A DNA stretch of 64,000 nucleotides from Aquisphaera giovannonii. Its GTDB lineage: Bacteria; Planctomycetota; Planctomycetia; Isosphaerales; Isosphaeraceae. Positions 12,958 through 24,360 of this stretch are shown here, piece after piece; the first letter of the stretch is position 1; each line of letters starts with the position of its first letter. The notes below the pieces were generated by a model, which saw nothing but the letters and a program-made list of their open reading frames with translations, had not been told where the DNA came from and searched no databases. Location: NCBI RefSeq assembly GCF_008087625.1, contig NZ_CP042997.1, forward strand, positions 558,001 to 622,000, given 5' to 3'. Position numbers and translations under genes: made by a program.

Positions 12958-13078
12958 ATCTCCGCCGGGATTGACCCCGTCGCCCCGCGGTCGAGATCTC
13001 GAAGGAGGCCGTTCCGTCCCGATACCGCGTCCGCTAGACTGATGACATGGGCACGTCCATGAATCCGGATCATGCACC

Positions 13079-13666
13079 ATGACCCCGTCCGGCGACGCGG
13101 ACATCACCGACCCGGGCAGCCTGTTCGACCGCTTTCGGGAGCGGCTCCGCCGGACCGTGCGCCTGCGGCTCGACCGCCGCCTCGTCGGCGTCGTCGACTC
13201 GTCCGAGGTCCTCCAGGGCGCCCGCGACGAGGCGGTCCGGCGTGAGGGCGAGATGGGCGACGCGGCCGACCGCTTCCTGTGGTTCCGCGAGGTCGTCGTC
13301 GGGGTCCTGGCGCGGCTGGAGCGGGAGCGATTCGGCGACGACGTCCGTCGCGACGTCTCGCTGTACCGCGGTTCGCTCCCTGAGGCGACGACCGTCTCGC
13401 TGGCCGCCCACCTGATGGGCATTCCCGATGGCGACGACGACCGGGCCGCCGAACGCGCCCGTCACAAGCTCGTACTCCAGGATGCGCTCAACGCCCTGGA
13501 GGTCGGCGACCGCGAGGTGCTCACCCTGCGGCACTGCGAGCAGCTTTCCAATCAGGAGACGGCCGCCGCCCTCGGCCTCTCCGCGGCCCAGGCCAGCGAG
13601 GCCTACATCCGTGCCCTGAAGCGCATCTCCCCCGTGCTGGCCTCGATCAAGCGCCTGCAAGGTTGA
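13079..13666 (+). CDS. ECF RNA polymerase sigma factor paired with a kinase gene
   Basis: A 195-residue sigma factor of the planctomycete ECF type. Region 2 resembles FDRFRERLRRTVRLRLDRRL and SSEVLQGARDEAVRR; region 4 is clear in LEVGDREVLTLRHCEQLSNQ followed by ETAAALGLSAAQASEAYIRALKRI. No membrane helix is present. The start ATG follows CATGCACC; a ribosome-binding site is weak. The giant serine/threonine kinase begins 57 bp downstream in the same direction. Such sigma-kinase pairs are a known planctomycete arrangement in which the kinase is thought to control the sigma factor instead of a classical anti-sigma factor. Confidence 0.88.
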   Translation: MTPSGDADITDPGSLFDRFRERLRRTVRLRLDRRLVGVVDSSEVLQGARDEAVRREGEMGDAADRFLWFREVVVGVLARLERERFGDDVRRDVSLYRGSLPEATTVSLAAHLMGIPDGDDDRAAERARHKLVLQDALNALEVGDREVLTLRHCEQLSNQETAAALGLSAAQASEAYIRALKRISPVLASIKRLQG

Positions 13667-13723
13667 CTCGCCGCCCCAGCGGCCCGGCCGCGAGCGCCCG
13701 GCCCCCGACCCGGAGAGCAAGCG

Positions 13724-16700
13724 ATGGCGACCCCGGAACCGACGGACGACGGGCGCAATCCGGTCGAGGCACTGGCCGAGGAATTCCTCGGGCGCAGGCG
13801 GCGCGGCGAGGAGGCGACCCCGGAGGATTACGCCCGGGACTACCCGGAGCTGGCCGACGAGATCCTCGCGGTCTTCCCGGCGCTGCTGATGATGGAGGAC
13901 CTCGGGGCCAGTTCGGGCGGCCGCACCGGGCCGATCACCTCGGCGGGCGGCGTGGCGCCCGGGGCGACGTCGGGCCGCCTCGGCGAGTTCCGGCTGATCC
14001 GGGAGGTCGGCCGCGGCGGCATGGGGGTGGTGTACGAGGCCGAGCAGGAGAGCCTCGGCCGCCGCGTGGCGCTGAAGGTGCTGCCCGCCGGGGCCCTGGC
14101 CGACTCGAAGCAGGTCCGCCGGTTCGAGCGCGAGGCCCGCTCCGCGGCGCGCCTGCATCACACGCACATCGTCCCGGTGTTCGGCGTCGGCCGGCACGAC
14201 GGGACGCACTTCTACGTGATGCAGTTCATCCAGGGCCAGGGGCTCGACGCGGTCCTCGGCGAGCTGAAGAGGCTCCGCGCCCCGGGGCGCGGCGAGGGCC
14301 CCGGCCGGCCCGCGACGCGCCCGACGGCCGAGGTCGACGGGCGCCGGCGCGCCGCGGCCGACATCGCGCAGTCCCTGGTGACCGGCCGGTTCGACCGGGC
14401 CGCGGGGGCCGGGGCCGGGAGCGCGGCCGGTGCGCCGGCCGCCACCGCGGCGTGGTCCAGCATCCCCGGGGCCTCGCCCCCCGCCGCGACGGCGCCGCCG
14501 GGCCCCTCGGCCTCGGGGATCTCGACCCTCTCGGGGGGCGCCTCGGCCGTCTCCGAGACCGACCGCAACTACGCGCGGGGCGTGGCCCGCGTCGGGCTGC
14601 AGGTGGCCGAGGCGCTGGCGTACGCCCACGGGCAGGGGATCCTGCACCGCGACATCAAGCCGGGCAACCTGCTGCTGGACCGCGACGGCAACGTGTGGGT
14701 GGCGGACTTCGGGCTCGCGAAGGCCGTGGGCGTCGACGACCTGACGCACACCGGCGACATCGTCGGCACCGTGCGCTACATGGCCCCGGAGCGGTTCCGC
14801 GGCGAGGGCGACGCCCGGGCCGACGTCTACGCCCTGGGGCTGACCCTCTACGAGCTGCTGGCCCTCCGCCCGGCGTTCGACGAGTCCGACCGCGCCAGCC
14901 TGATGCGCCAGGTGACCCAGGAGGACCCGCCGCGGCTTCGGCGGCTGAACCGGGCGGTGCCTCCGGACCTGGAGACGATCATCCACAAGGCGATGTCGCG
15001 CGACCCGGGGGCCCGCTACCGCGGCGCGGCCGAGATGGCCGACGACCTTCAGCGGTTCCTCGACGGCCGGCCGATCCGGGCGCGGAGGGTCTCGCCGTCG
15101 GAGCGGCTCTACCGCTGGGCCCGCCGCAACCCGGCGCTGGCCGCGTCGCTGGGCCTGGCGGCTGTCCTGCTGGTGGGGACGACGATCGGCGCGGTCGTCG
15201 GCATGGCCCGCTTCCGAACCATCGCCCGGGAGGCCCGCGACGCCGCGTCGGCCGCCGATTCCGCCCGCGCCGAGGCCGTCGCCGCGGGCCGACTGGCCGA
15301 GTCGCGGAGGATCGAGGCCGAGGCCCAGCGCCGGCGTGCCGAGGCGAGCCTGGCCGAGTCGCAGGCCAGCCTGGTGCTGGCCCGCAAGGCGGTGGACGAC
15401 TCCTTCACGAAGGTGAGCGAGAGCACCCTGCTGGACGTGCCCGGCCTGCGACCGCTCCGCCGGCAGCTGCTGGAGTCCTCGCTGCCGTTCTACGAGGAGT
15501 TCCTCCGGCGCCACGGCGGCAACGACCCCACCGGCCTGGCCGAGCTGGCCGCCACGCAGTATCGCGTCGCCCGGGTGCTGTCCGAGACCGGCCGGGGCGA
15601 GCAGGCGGAGGAGCGGTTCCGCCGGGCGATCGCGCTCTACGACCAGGCGCTGGCCGCCCGCCCCGGGGACGCCTCCCTCCGCGAGGCACAGGCCGAGGCC
15701 TGGCATCGGTACGCCGACCACTTCTTCCTCGGGGGCCGGATGGAGCGGTCCGGGGAGCCCTACGCGAAGGCCGTGGCGCTCCGCGAGCAGCTCTCCGCCC
15801 AGCATCCCGGGGAGCCCCGGTACCGCCTCGGCCTCTCGCGCTCGCTCAACGGGGTCGGGATCTCGACCCGGGACCGGGACACCCGCTACTCCGCGTTCCG
15901 CCGCTCGCTCGAGCTGCGACTCGACCTCGCCCGCGAGATCCCCGACGACCCGGACCTCCTCCACGGGCTCTGCGAGTCGTTCCTCAACATGGGGAACTTC
16001 CTGGCCGATCTCGGTCGGCGCGAGCAGGCGCTGGAACTGGCCCGCCGCGCCATCGACTACGGGATGGCCGCCTGTGCCCTCCGGCCGCACGACGTCGAGT
16101 TCGCCGCGGACCTGAGCGGGGCCTTCGCGGCGGCCGAGTCCAGCAGCGGGGTCCTCGGCCGGGCCGGGGACGCGCTCCGGCATGCGACGGAGCGGGTCGC
16201 GTTCGCCCGCAGGCTCGTCGCGGAGAACCCGGAGGTGCCGACCTACCGCACCCACCTGCACGACGCGCTGAACGCCCAGGCGCACCGGCTGGCCCAGCAG
16301 AACCGGCCGGACGGGGCGCGGGAGGCCCGCGAGGCCGCCGCGGCGGTCCACGAGACCGCCCCGTCCCCCGCCGGCATCAACCTGGCCCGGGCGGCCGCCG
16401 CCCGCCTCCATGCGGCGAAGCTCCTGGCGGGCGACCGGGCCGAGGGGCCCCCCGAGGCGCCATGGCCCGAGGCCGCGCGGCGGCAGCTCGACGCCGCGGT
16501 CGAGGACCTCGCCCGCGCCGCGGCCCTGGGCTACCCGGTCGCCGGGTTCGGCAAGACGTTCCCGGAGGTCGCCCCCCAGGCCCGGCGGATCGACCTCGAC
16601 GCGGTCGCCGAGCGGGCGGCCGCCCTGAGGAAGACGGCGGGGGCGGGCGCCCCGACGCCCTCCACGCCCGCGGGGTACGAGTCGCCGTTGCACCAGCCGG

Positions 16701-19700
16701 GCCGCTTCGAGCTCGACCGCCTGATCGCCGAGGTGGCCGCCGACAGCTACGCCAGGCCGGGGGCCGAGGCCGAGAACCTCGACCGGCTCCGCTCGCTGCT
16801 GGCGAGGCTGGACGCGCGGCGGGCCGCCGCAGCCGATTCGCCCGGGCTGGATGCGGCCGCGGCGTCGCTCCGGATGCGACAGGGCTCGCTCCTCTGGGCC
16901 TCGGCCGACTACGCCGGGGCCGAGCGGGCGTGGCGCGCGGTCTTCGATCCGATCGAGCGGCTGCCGCGGGACGACCCCCGCCGGGCCGCGGCCCTCAGGG
17001 CTCTCTCGTCCGACGCCCTCGCCGTCTACTCCAAGTACCTCGACGTCGGCCTCTGGGAGATCGCCGCGAGGTACCACCGGCTCGGCCGCGAGGGCCGGGC
17101 CGCCCTCGACCCCGTGCTGGCGCAGGAGGGGGCCACGCTGGAGATGCTGGCGGGCGACGCCGCGGCGGCCCGCAGGATCGCCGCCGACGCCCTCGACCGA
17201 TTCGAGCGCGACGGCGGCTGGGACGCCATCCACGACCTGAACGCCTCGATGGTCGATCCGCGGCCGCCGGATCCCGGCCGGCTCCTGGCCTATGCCCAGC
17301 GACTCCGCGGGACGCAGCCCGACAACGAATGGTCGCGCATCATCCCCGGGCTGGCGCTGATTCGGGCCGGCCATTTCGACCAGGTCCCGGAGGCCGTCGG
17401 CCGCGAGACGTCCTGGGAGAAGGGCAAGGTCGTGGTCGCCCTGGCCGCCGCGCGGGCCGGGCAGGTCGATCGGGCCCGCCGCTGGCTCCGCGCGGTGGAC
17501 GTCCGCCTGGAGGAGCTCTGCCGGGAGGGCGCCTCCGCGCAGGGGACGATCGGCCGGCCGGTCGCGTACGCCCTCGACGTCCTCCGCGCCGACCTGCTGC
17601 GCCGCGAGGCGTACGGCGTGCTCAAGGTGCCCGCCCCCGAGATCGCCCCGCTCCGCCTGCTGCGCGGGACGTCCCTCTGGCGATTGGGGCGGCGCGAGGA
17701 GGCCGAGGCCGAGTTCGCCACCGCCGCCTCGGATGCCGCGGCCGACGGCCGTGCGCTCGCCGACCGGGCGCGGGCGTTCGAATCGCTCGGACTTCGCGAC
17801 CGGGCGGAGGCCGACCTCGAGGCGGCCGCCCGCCTCGACCCCGGGGATCCGCATCCCTGGATCGCCCGCGCCCGGCTGATGGAAGCGCGGGGTGATCGCG
17901 CCGAGGCCGACGCCGCCTACGCCCGCGCCGCGGAACGGACCGGGGGCCGCATCGACCCGTTCCTGGAGGCCGGCTGGTGGGCCGCCGGGCCCTTCCCCGA
18001 CGACATGGACCGGAGCGAACCCCCCGAGAAGGAGGCCGACCCCTCGCGGCCGGCCTCCACCTCGGGGGGCGAGGCCCGGGCGTGGAGGCCGTTGCCGACG
18101 GCGGGCGACCATGGGACCTACTTCACGGCCTTCCAGGGCCAGGCGTCGTCGGTCTACGCGCTGACCTACCTCTACGCGGACCGCGAGCGCACTGCGCTGC
18201 TCTGCTGCAACGGCAGCGCCCGGCTCAGGATCTGGGTCAACGGTCGCCTGGTGTACTCTCCGGAGGCCCCCCCCGCGTATCGCCCCGGCCCGGAGCGGCT
18301 GGTGCCGATCGCGCTCGGCAAGGGCCGCAATACGCTGCTGCTGCGGGTGGCCGAGCCGGCCGCGCTCGCCTTCGTCATCATCAAGGGGGGGGATTGCCCC
18401 CTGAACCAGGGCTACCTGCTGGCCGAGTGCGGCCGCTGGGGGGAGGCCGCCGACGCGATCGCCGGGGCCGTCGCGCGGGGCGAGTCCCGGCATCCCTGGC
18501 CCCTCGCCAAGGCGGCCCATCTGCTGCTCGCGGAGGGCCGGCGGGAGGAGCGTGCCGCGCTGCTGGCCCGCCTGGTCGACTTCGAGGGGATGGCCCCGGT
18601 CGAGGCCACGGAGGTCGGCGAGGCCCTCGCGGCCGGCCCGCAGGACGTCGTTTCCACCGAGCGGGTCGTCGAGCTCGCCCGGCGGGGCGTCTCGGAGCAC
18701 CCCCTGGAGACTTGGCGGCTGCTCCCGCTGGGCATCGCGCTCTACCGCGACGGGCGGCACCGCGAGGCGATCGAGGCGTTCGACCGCCACACCCCGCAGG
18801 GCGACCCGCTCGACGCGGCGGTGCGGGCGATGGCCCACTGGAAGCTCGGCGAGGCCGGCCGCGCCCGCGAGTGCCTGGCCCGGGCCGACCGCGAGTTCGA
18901 GGCCTGGTGCGCCGACCGCGCCGACGGCAAGGGGTCGGCCGCCTGGACGTCGTGGTGGTACGACGGCCCGCTCCGCTACGCGTTGCGTCGCGAGGCGCAT
19001 GACCTGATCGACGGCCGGGCCCCCGACGATCGCGCCGCGCTGGACGGCGTCCGCGCCGCGATGGCCGGCCTGCTGGAAGACCGGGATTCCCCGACCTGGG
19101 CCTTCGAGCTGGCATACCGCCTCGATCCCGAGAGCGGCGCCTACCGCCAGGGGTACGCCTCGCGGCTGCTCGTCGCGGGCCGGTCGGCCGGGGCCGAGCC
19201 GTTCCTGGCCGCCATGGTCCATGGGAAGGAGGGCGACCCGGACGCCTGGACGCTGCGGGGTGAGTTGCTCGCCCGCGCGGGCAGGACCGACCAGGCGGCG
19301 GAGGACTTCGAGCGGGCCGTCGCCCTGGTGCCGCCGGACCTGGCGGTTTACTCGAGTCGCTCGAAAGCCCTCGCGAATCTGAACCGATTCCCCCAGGTCC
19401 TCGACCGGCTGATCGAGCGCCGGCCCGGGGACGCGGGGCTCTGGTACGCCCGGGCCTGCCACCGGCTGATCCGGGGCGATGCCCCCGGGGCGGTCGGCGA
19501 CTTCGCCCGGGGCGGCCCGCCGCCGGCCTCCACCGAGTTCGCCCTCGCCTACGCCGGGGCCCTGCTCATGGCGGGCGACGAGCCCGGCTACCGGCGGTAC
19601 GTCGCCGAGCAGGCCGGGCGGTTCGGCGGCTCGTCGGACGCGTTCGCCTGGTTCGTCCTGGCGCGAATGGCGTCGCTCTCGGCCCGGACGCCCCTGCCCC

Positions 19701-20083
19701 CGGAGCGGCCGCTGGACTGGGCGCGGCGTTTTTTCGAGAAGGACCCCACGCCCTGGTCGGCGCACGTCCTGGCCCTCGCGGCCTTCCGGGCCGGCGACCT
19801 CGTCGAGACGCGCCGCGCCCTGGCCGAGTCGCGGCAGCGGGGCTGGGACGCCCAGCATCTCAATGACCTGATCGAAGCCGCCATCGACCTCCGGGGAGGG
19901 TCCTCCGTCGCCGCCGCCCGGACGTTCGCCTCGGTCCGGCCGTGGATGGCGGGTCCGCCGGGCTACGGCCCCGTCGTCGGCCGCGGTTCCATCACCGACT
20001 GGGTGGAGCTCCGGGTGCTCGGCCCGCAGGTTGAGCTCCCCTTGCTCGATCGATCGTTCCCCACCCATCCGTTCGCCCGCTGA
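13724..20083 (+). CDS. Giant membrane-bound serine/threonine kinase with TPR repeats
   Basis: A 2119-residue kinase. The glycine loop (GRGGMGVVYEAE) is at about residue 92, the VALK lysine near 115, HRDIKPGNLLL near 308 and DFGLAKAV near 328. The HRD motif comes later than usual because a proline/alanine/glycine-rich insert of about 100 residues interrupts the middle of the kinase lobe (about 185-285). A membrane helix at 470-493 is followed by a coiled coil, then about 1500 residues of TPR-like helical repeats. A beta-rich PA14/galactose-binding-like segment sits near residues 1450-1560 (ARLRIWVNGRLVYSPEAPP). The last residues are FPTHPFAR. The gene follows its ECF sigma partner by 57 bp. 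The likely role is to sense through the repeat region and phosphorylate the sigma factor or other targets; the signal is unknown. Confidence 0.9.
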   Translation: MATPEPTDDGRNPVEALAEEFLGRRRRGEEATPEDYARDYPELADEILAVFPALLMMEDLGASSGGRTGPITSAGGVAPGATSGRLGEFRLIREVGRGGMGVVYEAEQESLGRRVALKVLPAGALADSKQVRRFEREARSAARLHHTHIVPVFGVGRHDGTHFYVMQFIQGQGLDAVLGELKRLRAPGRGEGPGRPATRPTAEVDGRRRAAADIAQSLVTGRFDRAAGAGAGSAAGAPAATAAWSSIPGASPPAATAPPGPSASGISTLSGGASAVSETDRNYARGVARVGLQVAEALAYAHGQGILHRDIKPGNLLLDRDGNVWVADFGLAKAVGVDDLTHTGDIVGTVRYMAPERFRGEGDARADVYALGLTLYELLALRPAFDESDRASLMRQVTQEDPPRLRRLNRAVPPDLETIIHKAMSRDPGARYRGAAEMADDLQRFLDGRPIRARRVSPSERLYRWARRNPALAASLGLAAVLLVGTTIGAVVGMARFRTIAREARDAASAADSARAEAVAAGRLAESRRIEAEAQRRRAEASLAESQASLVLARKAVDDSFTKVSESTLLDVPGLRPLRRQLLESSLPFYEEFLRRHGGNDPTGLAELAATQYRVARVLSETGRGEQAEERFRRAIALYDQALAARPGDASLREAQAEAWHRYADHFFLGGRMERSGEPYAKAVALREQLSAQHPGEPRYRLGLSRSLNGVGISTRDRDTRYSAFRRSLELRLDLAREIPDDPDLLHGLCESFLNMGNFLADLGRREQALELARRAIDYGMAACALRPHDVEFAADLSGAFAAAESSSGVLGRAGDALRHATERVAFARRLVAENPEVPTYRTHLHDALNAQAHRLAQQNRPDGAREAREAAAAVHETAPSPAGINLARAAAARLHAAKLLAGDRAEGPPEAPWPEAARRQLDAAVEDLARAAALGYPVAGFGKTFPEVAPQARRIDLDAVAERAAALRKTAGAGAPTPSTPAGYESPLHQPGRFELDRLIAEVAADSYARPGAEAENLDRLRSLLARLDARRAAAADSPGLDAAAASLRMRQGSLLWASADYAGAERAWRAVFDPIERLPRDDPRRAAALRALSSDALAVYSKYLDVGLWEIAARYHRLGREGRAALDPVLAQEGATLEMLAGDAAAARRIAADALDRFERDGGWDAIHDLNASMVDPRPPDPGRLLAYAQRLRGTQPDNEWSRIIPGLALIRAGHFDQVPEAVGRETSWEKGKVVVALAAARAGQVDRARRWLRAVDVRLEELCREGASAQGTIGRPVAYALDVLRADLLRREAYGVLKVPAPEIAPLRLLRGTSLWRLGRREEAEAEFATAASDAAADGRALADRARAFESLGLRDRAEADLEAAARLDPGDPHPWIARARLMEARGDRAEADAAYARAAERTGGRIDPFLEAGWWAAGPFPDDMDRSEPPEKEADPSRPASTSGGEARAWRPLPTAGDHGTYFTAFQGQASSVYALTYLYADRERTALLCCNGSARLRIWVNGRLVYSPEAPPAYRPGPERLVPIALGKGRNTLLLRVAEPAALAFVIIKGGDCPLNQGYLLAECGRWGEAADAIAGAVARGESRHPWPLAKAAHLLLAEGRREERAALLARLVDFEGMAPVEATEVGEALAAGPQDVVSTERVVELARRGVSEHPLETWRLLPLGIALYRDGRHREAIEAFDRHTPQGDPLDAAVRAMAHWKLGEAGRARECLARADREFEAWCADRADGKGSAAWTSWWYDGPLRYALRREAHDLIDGRAPDDRAALDGVRAAMAGLLEDRDSPTWAFELAYRLDPESGAYRQGYASRLLVAGRSAGAEPFLAAMVHGKEGDPDAWTLRGELLARAGRTDQAAEDFERAVALVPPDLAVYSSRSKALANLNRFPQVLDRLIERRPGDAGLWYARACHRLIRGDAPGAVGDFARGGPPPASTEFALAYAGALLMAGDEPGYRRYVAEQAGRFGGSSDAFAWFVLARMASLSARTPLPPERPLDWARRFFEKDPTPWSAHVLALAAFRAGDLVETRRALAESRQRGWDAQHLNDLIEAAIDLRGGSSVAAARTFASVRPWMAGPPGYGPVVGRGSITDWVELRVLGPQVELPLLDRSFPTHPFAR

Positions 20084-20122
20084 GCGGGCCGTTGCGAAGG
20101 TTGGGGCCTCGTCCGCAATCGG

Positions 20123-20338
20123 CAGCGATCCCGTGGCATCGCCTTCGGCTCTGCAACAGCCACGCGGAGGGCACGCCTCGCCGCTCTCACGATCCCGCAG
20201 GCAGCCGCCGGGTGGCTGTGGCGGAAGCGCAGCGACGCCACGGGACCGCCCCGGCCGGAGCGCGGGCGTCGGCTCGCCCACACGCCCCAGCGATCCCGTG
20301 AAATCGCTTTCGGCTCTGCCACAGCCACCCGGAGGGCC
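20123..20338. repeat. Three copies of a palindromic repeat (family E)
   Basis: Copies at about 20123-20172 (plus), 20203-20244 (minus) and 20289-20338 (plus). Shared parts are GATCCCGTG, then ATCGCTTTCGGCTCTGC, then ACAGCCACCCGGAGGGC, with small changes. The 445-bp stretch from the kinase stop to the next small gene holds these copies and nothing else I recognise. Confidence 0.75.
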
Positions 20339-20981: not shown

Positions 20982-21941
20982 TTACGGGTGAGATCTCGCC
21001 GACGGCCGCTTGCGACGACCGAAGACACCGTCGGGCACCGGGGGCGGCCATGAGGGGATGAGCGAGCGGCCGAGGCCGGGGACGGAGGCACGCACGAAGC
21101 GGGCGTCGCCGCCGGCTCGCCAGCGGATCCAGGCCACGAGGGTCGGCCGCCGCGGGACCTCGTCGCCGGGCTGGCCGGCGAGGAGGGCGGGGATCAGGGC
21201 GTCGGGGCGATATCGGAGCAAGGTGATGACCAGGCGGCGAGAGGGGTCGCGGGCCTGGAGGGCGGCGGACTCGAAGGCGGCGGCGTCGGCGAGCCAGGGA
21301 GGGACGTCGGGGAGCAGCTCGCCCCGGGCGAGGCGGCCCGCGAAGGTGATCGCGTCGTCGCGGTGCCGCTTCGGGCCGGCCGGCCAGGAGTCGGCGGCGT
21401 GACGCCGGAAGAGGTCCGCGAGGAGGCGCGGGCCGAGGGCCCGGGTCGTCGCCGGGAGGCAGTTCGCCACGGCGCCTCGACGCTTGTGGATGAGGCCCTC
21501 GGCGTAGTGCCGGAGCTGCTCCGGCGGGACCGAGGCCAGGATGAGGAGGGGCTCGTCGGGGAGGCTGGTTCCGGTGCTCCGGCGCTCGGCGTCTGCTTCA
21601 GAGATCCCCCTGGACGCTGCACTTCGGGGGAGGCCGAATTTCGTTCTCCCCCTTACGAAGGGGGAGTCAGAGGGGGTAGTTGGCGCAGGCAAAGGCGATC
21701 GAATCCACCCCCCTGTACCCCCCTTTCGTAAGGGAGAAATCGAGAGGGGCCTCTCCCCTTCTTCCGGGGGGAGGCTGAACTCCACAACCCGATCTTCCCC
21801 GGACGGATTCTCCATCCAATCCCGGGCGCCCGGGGCATCCCCCCTGCCCTCGTCCTCGGCCGCCGCGGCGAGGAACCGCTCGCGGAGCGAGGGGTCGGTG
21901 AGGATCCGCGTCAGCTCGCGCTGGAGCTCGGACAGGGCCAT
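20982..21941 (-). CDS. Partner protein of the DUF692 enzyme (SCO6045-like), with a repeat-derived insert
   Basis: A 319-residue protein and last gene of a three-gene operon; its first 31 bp overlap the end of the DUF692 gene. The ATG at 21941 has GGGAGG eight bases upstream. The N-terminus (MALSELQRELTRILTDPSLR) is a helical leader like that of DUF2063/SCO6045-type proteins. The C-terminal part (about 115-319) is helical with RHYAEGLIHKRRGAVANCLP and a region ending at the stop. Residues about 52-110 are not family-like: they translate a palindromic intergenic repeat (LRKGGTGG, SPFVRG). In related operons the partner helps the MNIO enzyme bind its substrate. Here that role is inferred from position. 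Whether the insert disables the protein is unknown. Confidence 0.7.
   Translation of the reverse strand: MALSELQRELTRILTDPSLRERFLAAAAEDEGRGDAPGARDWMENPSGEDRVVEFSLPPEEGERPLSISPLRKGGTGGWIRSPLPAPTTPSDSPFVRGRTKFGLPRSAASRGISEADAERRSTGTSLPDEPLLILASVPPEQLRHYAEGLIHKRRGAVANCLPATTRALGPRLLADLFRRHAADSWPAGPKRHRDDAITFAGRLARGELLPDVPPWLADAAAFESAALQARDPSRRLVITLLRYRPDALIPALLAGQPGDEVPRRPTLVAWIRWRAGGDARFVRASVPGLGRSLIPSWPPPVPDGVFGRRKRPSARSHP
21625..21785. repeat. Palindromic repeat embedded in frame in a coding gene
   Basis: Two facing half-elements, TTCTCCCCCTTACGAAGGGG (near 21643) and CCCCTTTCGTAAGGGAGAAA (near 21720), can pair across about 60 bp. A third stem, CCCTTCTTCCGGGGGGAGG, follows near 21756. The whole insert is read through by the partner gene without a stop. 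The sequence type is that of dispersed intergenic palindromes. Confidence 0.8.
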
Positions 21942-22792
21942 CGGCCGTGCCTCCCGGCGATCGCCCGGGCCCGGTCGAGCTCGCCCAGGAGCTCGGCGAA
22001 CGGGGGCAGGTCCTCGTCGCGCTCGAGGATCAGGCCCCGCACCGGGGCCCGCTCGAGCACGTAATCCATCAGGTCCCACACCGCCGAGGGCGTGGGGGCG
22101 GAGTGGCTGTCGATCAGGCGGCCGCCGCCCTCGTCATGGCCGCCGACGAAGTGGAGCTGGACGATCCGGTCGGGCGGCAGGCGGTCGATGAACGCCCGCG
22201 GGTCGCCGCCGTGATTCATCGAGTTCGTATATAAATTGGTGACGTCCAGCAGGAGCCCGCAGCCGGTCCGCCCGGCGAGCTCGGCCAGGAAGTCGGCCTC
22301 GTCGAGCTCCGCGCCCGGGACGCGGAAGTCGTACGTGATGTTCTCCAGGATCAGGGGAACATCAATGAGCGCCTGGACCTCGGCGATGTTCGCCGACAGC
22401 ACGTCCAGGGCCCCGTTCGAGAACGGCAAGGGGGCCAGGTGCCCCAGCTCGATCCCGCCGGCCCGGGTGAAGGCGACGTGCTCGCTCCACCAGGGGGGAT
22501 CGAGGCTCCGGACCAGGCCCAGGAGGGTGTCGCGATAGTCCGGGTCCAGCCCCTCTGCGCTGCCGAGGGAGAGGCTCAGCCCGTGCGGGATCAGCGTGAA
22601 GTGGCCGGCCAGCAGCTCCAGCTCGCGGAGCTTCGCCGCGGGGGCGTCCATGTAGTGGTCGGCCGTGATCTCGAGGAAGTCCACCTGCTCCCGGTGGAGC
22701 AGGACATCCGCCCGGTACGGCTCGCGGAAGCCGAGACCGACGCCGAGCGACGGTAGGGCCTCGATCGGTGACCTCGTTCGTTCGCGATTCAT
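21911..22792 (-). CDS. DUF692 multinuclear non-heme iron oxidative enzyme (MNIO)
   Basis: A 293-residue TIM-barrel enzyme of the DUF692/UPF0276 family (relatives MbnB, TglH, ChrH). These modify cysteines of ribosomally made peptides with the help of two or three iron ions. Metal-ligand blocks are present in order: HGLSLSLG, WSEHVAFT, LENITYDF, LLLDVTNLYTNSMNHGGDP, LHFVGGHDEGGG, IDSHSAP and LERDEDLPPF. The gene begins 3 bp after the stop of the Cys-rich-tailed TIGR04222 gene and overlaps the partner gene, so all three are one transcript. The probable substrate is the Cys/Gly tail of the first gene product; that is inference from context. The N-terminal extension MNRERTRSPIEALP is slightly longer than usual. 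Confidence 0.9.
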   Translation of the reverse strand: MNRERTRSPIEALPSLGVGLGFREPYRADVLLHREQVDFLEITADHYMDAPAAKLRELELLAGHFTLIPHGLSLSLGSAEGLDPDYRDTLLGLVRSLDPPWWSEHVAFTRAGGIELGHLAPLPFSNGALDVLSANIAEVQALIDVPLILENITYDFRVPGAELDEADFLAELAGRTGCGLLLDVTNLYTNSMNHGGDPRAFIDRLPPDRIVQLHFVGGHDEGGGRLIDSHSAPTPSAVWDLMDYVLERAPVRGLILERDEDLPPFAELLGELDRARAIAGRHGRWPCPSSSAS

Positions 22793-22795
22793 GGA

Positions 22796-23737
22796 TCAGC
22801 CTCCACACCCGCCGCAACCGCCGCAACCCCCGCCGCAGCCTCCGCCGCCCGAGCAGCCCCCGGCCCCTCCGCAGGCGGCACACCCGCAGCCGGTGGTCTC
22901 GGGCCGCGGCATGAGAGGCTTCCAGGTGTTCTCCAGCTCCGTGCCGACGAGCGCGGGGATGCCGAGCACGGCGACTGCCATGACGGCGGCCGGGCTCTTC
23001 ACGGCCTCCGGCCGCGTGGCCACGGCGGGCCAGTCGTCGAAGGTGGTCTTCAGCCGGGCCAGGTAGTCTTTGCCCATCCTCGTCAGCCGGGACGGCCGGC
23101 CGAGCATGAGGATGGCGTTGACCCCGAAGAAACCGAGGGCCACGAGTAAGCCGACGTTGTGGCGGCCGTGGTCCAGGGCGAGGAAGAGCTTGTAGCCGCC
23201 GAGCAGGGCGAAGCACGACGCGGCCGGCAGCGTGAACTCCCGGGCCGCGGCGCGGCAGCCGGCGGGCATCAGCAGGAGGTCCTCCTCCAGGGGCTCGCGG
23301 AGCGATTCGCCGTGGGCCTCCGCCAGGCGGAGCAGGCGGCGATCCGTGCGGAGCTTGGGCACCTCGACGGGGGTCTTCAGCTCCTCGAGCAGCTCGCGCT
23401 CGAATTCCGGCAGGGAGCGGCAATCGGGGAGCTCGTCGGCCCGGCCGATCCGCAGTTGGCCGCCGGTCGTGGCGGGGAGGTGGGTCTTGAGGAAGCCGCG
23501 ACGCTCGAGGTCGAACACGGAGACGGCCAGCAGGCGGGGGGTGTCTCCCCGCAGGAAGGCGATCTCGTGGGCGTCCAGCTTGCCGGGCACGATCGGCGGC
23601 TCGCGGCCGAGGGTCGGGTCCAGCAGCCGTGAGCGGATCCGGACGACGAGGCACGCGACGGCGAGGACGGCCAGGTAGAACGCCAGGAAGCTCGGCCCGC
23701 GCATGTCGGCGATCGGGTTATGGAGCAGCCATTGCAT
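22796..23737 (-). CDS. TIGR04222-like membrane protein with C-terminal Cys/Gly-rich tail
   Basis: A 313-residue protein. I chose the ATG at 23737 (CGGAG six bases upstream) because it places a membrane helix at the N-terminus (FLAFYLAVLAVACLVVRI). Central conserved blocks (HEIAFLRGD, VFDLERRGFL) match the TIGR04222 pattern. Two helices follow around residues 180-225 and another near 270. The tail after residue about 283 is almost only Gly, Ala and Cys: GCGCAACGGAGGC, then SGGGGCGGGC and GGCGGCGG, with eight cysteines. The tail is where an MNIO enzyme could act. It is the first gene of the operon and is separated from the MNIO gene by 3 bp. No leader-cleavage signal is evident. Confidence 0.8.
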   Translation of the reverse strand: MQWLLHNPIADMRGPSFLAFYLAVLAVACLVVRIRSRLLDPTLGREPPIVPGKLDAHEIAFLRGDTPRLLAVSVFDLERRGFLKTHLPATTGGQLRIGRADELPDCRSLPEFERELLEELKTPVEVPKLRTDRRLLRLAEAHGESLREPLEEDLLLMPAGCRAAAREFTLPAASCFALLGGYKLFLALDHGRHNVGLLVALGFFGVNAILMLGRPSRLTRMGKDYLARLKTTFDDWPAVATRPEAVKSPAAVMAVAVLGIPALVGTELENTWKPLMPRPETTGCGCAACGGAGGCSGGGGCGGGCGGCGGCGG

Positions 23738-24051: not shown

Positions 24052-24360
24052 ATGGCGGAGTTGAACGTGGCGATCAAGCATGGGCAGGCCCTGGAGGCCG
24101 CGCGGGTCAATTTCGAACGGGCGATCCTGAAGGCGAAGGCCGATCATTCGCGATGGATCCACAAGGTGGACTGGGCGGACGACCGGAAGTCGGCCGTGCT
24201 CCACGGGCCGTCGTACGCGGTGACGCTCAGCTTCGACGACCAGCACGTCTACGCGAAGGGCAAGATCCCGCTGGCCCTCAAGCTCTTCGAGGGGCCGGTG
24301 CGGCGGTACGTCGAGCACATGCTGGCCGACATGGCCGCGAAGCCGGACGGCCCGGCCTGA
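24052..24360 (+). CDS. Putative PHA-system (PHA_gran_rgn) family protein
   Basis: A 102-residue protein with pattern RWIHKVDWADDRKSAVLHGP then SYAVTLSFDDQHVYAKGKIP and LALKLFEGPVRRYVEHML. This one-domain alpha/beta layout (short helix, beta hairpin with a tryptophan, final long helix) matches the family linked to polyhydroxyalkanoate granules, whose members are about 90-110 residues. The granule role is not supported by any neighbour, so the assignment rests on fold pattern alone. Gluconokinase follows 73 bp downstream. Confidence 0.5.
   Translation: MAELNVAIKHGQALEAARVNFERAILKAKADHSRWIHKVDWADDRKSAVLHGPSYAVTLSFDDQHVYAKGKIPLALKLFEGPVRRYVEHMLADMAAKPDGPA

Follow-up and report, generated by a model that had tools for sequence, protein, structure and literature searches.

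This locus raises the question of what an MNIO (DUF692) enzyme acts on when its gene directly follows that of a membrane protein with a tail of cysteines and glycines, and how far such a tail can be taken as a sign of an MNIO substrate. The trio in question occupies positions 20982-23737 of the 64-kb stretch of Aquisphaera giovannonii DNA that was analysed (the whole stretch is called the window). All three genes are packed on the minus strand:

22796-23737, minus strand: TIGR04222 membrane protein, 313 aa (NCBIfam TIGR04222, E 1.4e-26)
22799-22888, minus strand: Cys/Gly tail of this protein, residues 284-313, 8 Cys, predicted outside the membrane (from the sequence)
21911-22792, minus strand: MNIO (DUF692) enzyme, 293 aa (PF05114, E 1.8e-83)
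20982-21941, minus strand: partner protein, 319 aa, PME-type 2-like (weak DUF2063 and Nif11 matches; alignment with the post-MNIO proteins of relatives)
21626-21779, no strand assigned: MITE-like stretch within the partner gene (repeat search)

Re-reading the coordinates on the minus strand gave the same packing as the original prediction had described, with 3 bp (22793-22795) between the TIGR04222 and MNIO genes and an overlap of 31 bp (21911-21941) between the MNIO and partner genes. Because the neighbouring genes are a convergent protein kinase gene (13724-20083, plus strand) and a divergent gene (24052-24360, plus strand), the operon appears to be limited to these three genes. The whole 10.5-Mb genome, which groups with Aquisphaera, holds one PF05114 match and one TIGR04222 match, and the two adjoin. 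Aquisphaera insulae has the same trio, with 77% identity for the membrane protein and 88% for the MNIO. A 2403-aa open frame at 13070-20281 of the window runs antisense to the 2119-aa protein kinase/TPR gene and is taken as a by-product of the high G+C content.

The first gene product had been described as a TIGR04222-like membrane protein ending in eight cysteines among glycines. It scores 93.6 bits against a TIGR04222 cut-off of 43 (NCBIfam), and eight cysteines were counted in its last 30 residues, CGCAACGGAGGCSGGGGCGGGCGGCGGCGG. Hydropathy predicts four transmembrane helices (residues 16-34, 170-188, 195-213 and 250-268). The 135-aa loop carries 22 K/R and the 36-aa loop 8 K/R versus 4 D/E, and because these charges fit the positive-inside rule both loops would lie inside and the tail outside. 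The outer position of the tail is thus a prediction calculated from hydropathy and charge only. The proteins of A. insulae and other relatives have the same tail. Its length and its number of Cys change fast among the tails compared, and no cleavage motif common to the positions before the tail was found among them. CGGCGG-coding DNA elsewhere in the genome revealed no further clear C-terminal tails. AlphaFold models of the partner and the membrane protein, for which the window and A. insulae sequences were the only input, reached a mean pLDDT of 38.8 and 36.5, respectively, and were excluded from fold searches.

The MNIO matches PF05114 with 280 bits (cut-off 25) and aligns with the solved MNIOs 3bww, 8hci/8hi7 and MbnB (7dz9 among the alignments) through the conserved His/Glu/Asp/Asn blocks, in agreement with the metal-ligand blocks of the original prediction. 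It stays under the cut-off of each of the NCBIfam models BufB, HvfB, ApyH, ChrH and MbnB, and does not reach equivalog status for BufB (233 vs 310 bits) or HvfB (198 vs 360 bits). Maximum likelihood placed the bufferin-type MNIOs in a single group with full support, from which the tail-linked MNIOs are separate. Judged by its sequence, the window MNIO belongs to a subfamily distinct from the bufferin-type enzymes.

The partner, encoded behind the MNIO, matches only DUF2063 and Nif11, both below threshold, and a PDB profile search with it gave no credible match. In a profile alignment it aligns with the post-MNIO proteins of relatives, among which the L-x-x-K-R and D/F positions are invariant. 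The partners are ~60 to 320 residues long and share an N-terminal helical part that ends in L-x-x-K-R; this spread of lengths around a common N-terminal part would fit the heterogeneous PME-type 2 group. The window partner gene carries an insert bounded by direct repeats of 13 bp, which lie 141 bp (47 codons) from each other and so keep the frame, and these enclose imperfect inverted arms of 37 bp. The extra residues encoded by this MITE-like stretch are missing from the A. insulae partner, and its core is present as a single copy within the 64-kb window. The in-frame insert could harm the window partner.

The window trio is a kind of locus that is already published. Antoine et al. (2025) described TIGR04222-MNIO-PME2 clusters and put forward the tail as MNIO substrate (PMC12452194), and the trio and substrate idea of the original prediction is therefore a rediscovery. 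According to the same study, TIGR04222 proteins make up 40% of the Cys proteins that have no signal peptide and whose genes precede MNIO genes; their C-termini, rich in Gly/Ser and containing Cys, are probably on the periplasmic side, and a subset of them are probably MNIO substrates; PME-type 2 partners are present in some of the clusters, and MNIO is absent from a third of the genomes with TIGR04222 (PMC12452194). The window trio resembles these clusters in its families, the partner being a probable PME-type 2 member, in its short packed operon and in its Gly/Ser-rich, Cys-containing C-terminus, predicted outside. The GRDP-like domain, to which we come below, is not mentioned there. The planctomycete example of that study, a Pirellula staleyi protein of 516 aa (ADB18956), agrees in length with the GRDP-fused and not with the MNIO-linked proteins. 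With the bufferin and oxazolin systems (BufB/BufC, HvfB/HvfC) the window system shares an MNIO with a DUF2063-like partner and repeated Cys-Gly units near the C-terminus. However, these systems act on a small peptide that is secreted by way of a Sec signal peptide, and their partner is of PME-type 1, whereas the window system has a four-helix membrane protein as substrate candidate, a type 2-like partner and an MNIO under the BufB and HvfB cut-offs. HvfB converts KCG motifs, and 5-thiooxazole is formed in HvfA, for which the partner is required too (PMC13419390). These motifs can be likened to the MNIO-linked tails, in which Cys is nearly always followed by Gly.

For the neighbourhood comparison in planctomycetes that had been proposed with the original prediction, TIGR04222 and PF05114 were searched in the same genome sets (relatives, phylum, class; ~670 different planctomycete genomes), and ~80 loci were retrieved and scored with profiles made from the window proteins. 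Since a few TIGR04222 genes over the cut-off were not retrieved and loci near an MNIO were taken first, proportions of loci are not population frequencies. The comparison bore the trio out: an MNIO lies directly downstream of TIGR04222 at 21 planctomycete loci, all 21 membrane proteins are tailed (2-9 Cys each), and the profile detects the partner behind the MNIO at 20 of them. At the one locus left, L054, a short ORF resembles the N-terminal part of the partner. A single pattern scan of named genomes gave a match in A. insulae only. That the trio recurs in many genomes argues for more than chance. One apparent long form with MNIO (L057) was rejected and assigned to the short form, its N-terminal extension being an out-of-gene reading frame. 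On a Streptomyces plasmid (L130:5956-8254) an MNIO and a partner are followed by a TIGR04222 protein without Cys tail, and the substrate is not evident.

The tail also stays beside the MNIO when the carrier protein is a different one. At ten loci with an MNIO of the same subfamily and no TIGR04222, the product of the gene just upstream passes a strict tail test in five cases (e.g. L198, ...CGSSCGGGCGGGGCGGCGGD), is rich in Gly at its C-terminus and has one Cys or more there in four further cases, and shows none in one. Among the bufferin-type MNIOs in the tree only one of 44 upstream proteins passes the tail test, by a bufferin-like CKG repeat. Gly follows 120 of the 127 tail Cys of MNIO-linked proteins. 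No other observation speaks as strongly for the tail as MNIO substrate: the carrier proteins vary while the tail is retained. At four loci (L168, L169, L170, L172) MNIO and partner genes lie behind those of small membrane proteins that contain stretches of YYYY or rich in D/K and whose tails, of the GGGGCGGGGD kind, have few Cys. At L196:1485-2193 (reverse strand) the tailed protein and the MNIO are immediately preceded by a second Cys/Gly-tailed protein.

Tails of the same kind were found at 49 further TIGR04222 loci with no MNIO nearby, and by our own count 34 of these 49 genomes have no PF05114 match. MNIO-linked and non-MNIO tails have a median of 6 Cys in each group (Mann-Whitney p 0.18), and Cys is mostly followed by Gly in both. 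A tail difference between MNIO-linked and GRDP-linked TIGR04222 proteins was rejected, as Cys number and spacing are alike. Because 34 genomes that lack MNIO altogether have the same tails, a Cys/Gly tail does not by itself mean that an MNIO modifies it and should not be read as a mark of an MNIO substrate.

All 49 loci have instead a GRDP-like (DUF1399) domain, fused N-terminally in 47 and encoded by the next gene in two; at L166 the GRDP-type frame is split. The domain comprises ~150 residues with the motif PSExVDQAWHLHLTYTxSYWxxxCxxVLxxPLHHxPTxGG, and a set of 30 sequences shows no variation at W, H, H, Y, C and the HH pair. Its closest Pfam relative is PF07173 (GRDP-like, DUF1399), which matches 12 of 30 fused domains weakly (best E 0.006). 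Two stand-alone homologues, L213 and L223, exceed the PF07173 cut-off (30.3 and 29.5 bits vs 22.7) and match the profile of the fused domain at 6e-21 and 1e-19, respectively. No solved structure matched credibly in a PDB profile search with the domain; nitrile hydratase matches (E 0.04-0.1) in the PDB profile searches with domain and partner cover only ~30 residues and were taken as chance. The GRDP-fused proteins are open frames of 474-630 aa, and in 44 of the 47 one more helix, preceded by a positively charged stretch, joins the GRDP-like domain to the TIGR04222 part. This arrangement would place the GRDP-like domain in the cytoplasm and the tail once more on the outside. Calculated in this way, both handlers are predicted to be cytoplasmic, while the tail itself would finish outside.

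At the TIGR04222 loci the two handlers exclude each other: an MNIO adjoins at 21 loci, a GRDP-like domain at 49, and both at none. Four tailed loci have neither, of which two stop at a contig end (L069, L167) and one comes from a 66%-complete genome (L055); L157 (G526), with a tail and no handler found, is a real exception. Neither handler is present at six TIGR04222 loci without Gly/Cys tail (one a fragment); that the short-form TIGR04222 proteins without such a tail, five in number, are near neither an MNIO nor a GRDP-like domain speaks for the tail as substrate. Simple Fisher tests give p about 1e-6 and 3e-13, values which overstate the evidence because the rows are related by descent. Both handler types occur inside each of four families (f1, f2, f3, f94). 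The best TIGR04222 tree requires 4 changes of the handler label; repeated independent swaps were considered but are not claimed, since a single split is not rejected (p-AU 0.288). Searched with the GRDP-like profile, 34 whole genomes showed the domain in only two of those that have the MNIO trio, and the window genome gave no match. From these sequence comparisons the tail seems to have two alternative cytoplasmic handlers, either MNIO and partner or the GRDP-like domain. In many relatives the GRDP-like domain stands in for the MNIO on the same tail, so it is the tail that is constant and the handler that can be exchanged; the same tail with a GRDP-like domain in place of MNIO appears to be new. 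This exchange offers a direct handle on what both do, and the comparison raises the interest of the trio, with one tail and two exclusive handlers, one of them a domain of unknown function that plants share. One protein (L222:1474-2166, plus strand) consists of a GRDP-like domain, a helix and a GGGCGGGSGCGG tail, with the TIGR04222 part absent, and its genome also holds an MNIO trio.

What the MNIO does at the tail can be judged against these data. In the reading that we prefer, and to which we give an even chance, a dedicated MNIO and its PME-type 2-like partner oxidise Cys of the C-terminal Cys/Gly tail. Members of the MNIO superfamily are defined as binding two or three iron ions and oxidising a ribosomal peptide or protein; by analogy, the window MNIO is probably an iron enzyme that oxidises the tail Cys. 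Partner and MNIO would act in the cytoplasm on the tail while it is nascent or still awaits insertion together with the last helix, and the Cys-Gly units would be turned into oxidised heterocycles, for which the 5-thiooxazoles of oxazolin and bufferin are the likeliest model. The four helices would then keep the tail anchored outside the cytoplasmic membrane, where it may bind a soft metal, with copper as the precedent. We infer the chemistry, the order of modification and export, and the metal. As the tail stands behind four helices, the enzyme must act before the last one is inserted, which is unusual and counts against this explanation, as do the untailed TIGR04222 protein beside MNIO and partner at L130, the tail without handler at L157 and the possibly harmful insert in the window partner gene. 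The substrate claim of the original prediction thus stands in part: the conserved trio, the tail that remains beside the MNIO across carriers and its predicted outer position speak for it, but indistinguishable tails occur in 34 MNIO-less genomes, with the GRDP-like domain there instead.

These genomes are at the same time the main point for a tail that needs no modification and serves as a flexible brush of thiols, as a metal-binding brush or as a disulfide reservoir, with the MNIO acting on another target or tuning a minority of sites. The equal number and spacing of Cys in both types would agree with such a brush. However, an MNIO or a GRDP-like domain adjoins all tailed loci but four, and MNIOs of the same subfamily stay behind tailed proteins despite the change of carrier; we consider an unmodified tail rather unlikely. 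The tail could also be a core peptide, for which the membrane protein serves as leader and export platform until a protease frees the modified tail as a metallophore. This would follow the RiPP logic of methanobactin and bufferin and suit the fast change in tail length and Cys number, but the operon, bounded by convergent and divergent genes, has no protease or exporter gene and the tails compared share no cleavage motif, which makes a released peptide improbable in our view. We regard it as very improbable that TIGR04222 and MNIO are neighbours by chance or through a shared regulon, with no enzyme-substrate relation. Both families are common in planctomycetes and a third of the TIGR04222 genomes are without MNIO (PMC12452194), but the 3-bp gap, the 31-bp overlap, the 21 conserved trios with a tail in every one of them and the separate MNIO clade all stand against it. 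If the tail is modified as in the preferred reading, MNIO chemistry would extend beyond small peptides to a large membrane protein, with a membrane-tethered metal ligand as the outcome.

GRDP-like proteins are also found beyond TIGR04222. A search of 294 genomes of the phylum showed that those without TIGR04222 mostly end in Cys tails on varied carriers, with layouts such as GRDP-helix-...CGGGCGGGCGGGD (L233), GRDP-zinc-ribbon-like-GGCGGCGGCGG... (L246) and GRDP-helix-...GCGGCSGCGGCGGCGGCGG (L237). Small soluble members finish in ...AGCGMCDAH, ...DAECGSCNS or RRCGR repeats, and L238 is a clear exception to the Cys-tail rule. In Arabidopsis, GRDP2 has an N-terminal DUF1399 and a C-terminal Gly-rich region with interspersed Cys, with the consensus [CG]GGGCGG[GC] (PMC4299439). 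The bacterial GRDP-like handler appears related to PF07173 (DUF1399), the domain of AtGRDP1/2, which join an N-terminal DUF1399 to a Cys-interspersed Gly-rich C-terminus; the plant proteins are not known to reside in membranes or to be linked to MNIO. Our literature search found no paper joining the GRDP-like domain, Cys tails, TIGR04222 and MNIO. We propose, tentatively and at somewhat less than even confidence, that the Cys/Gly tail is a widespread functional module from planctomycetes to plants with two mutually exclusive, unrelated cytoplasmic handlers, of which the GRDP-like domain, with its invariant W-H-x-H...C...H-H cluster, may be a metal-dependent enzyme or metal loader for the tail of the protein to which it belongs. 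If true, this would be a first biochemical hypothesis for DUF1399, and the comparison ties the plant DUF1399 proteins, with their growth and stress phenotypes, to a bacterial system. In L235 and L246, two neighbouring GRDP-like proteins, a CxxC...CxxC zinc-ribbon-like part lies between the helices and the Cys/Gly tail. The stand-alone proteins L223 and L213 end in RRCGR repeats or CSGRCGRRCRR and not in Cys/Gly.
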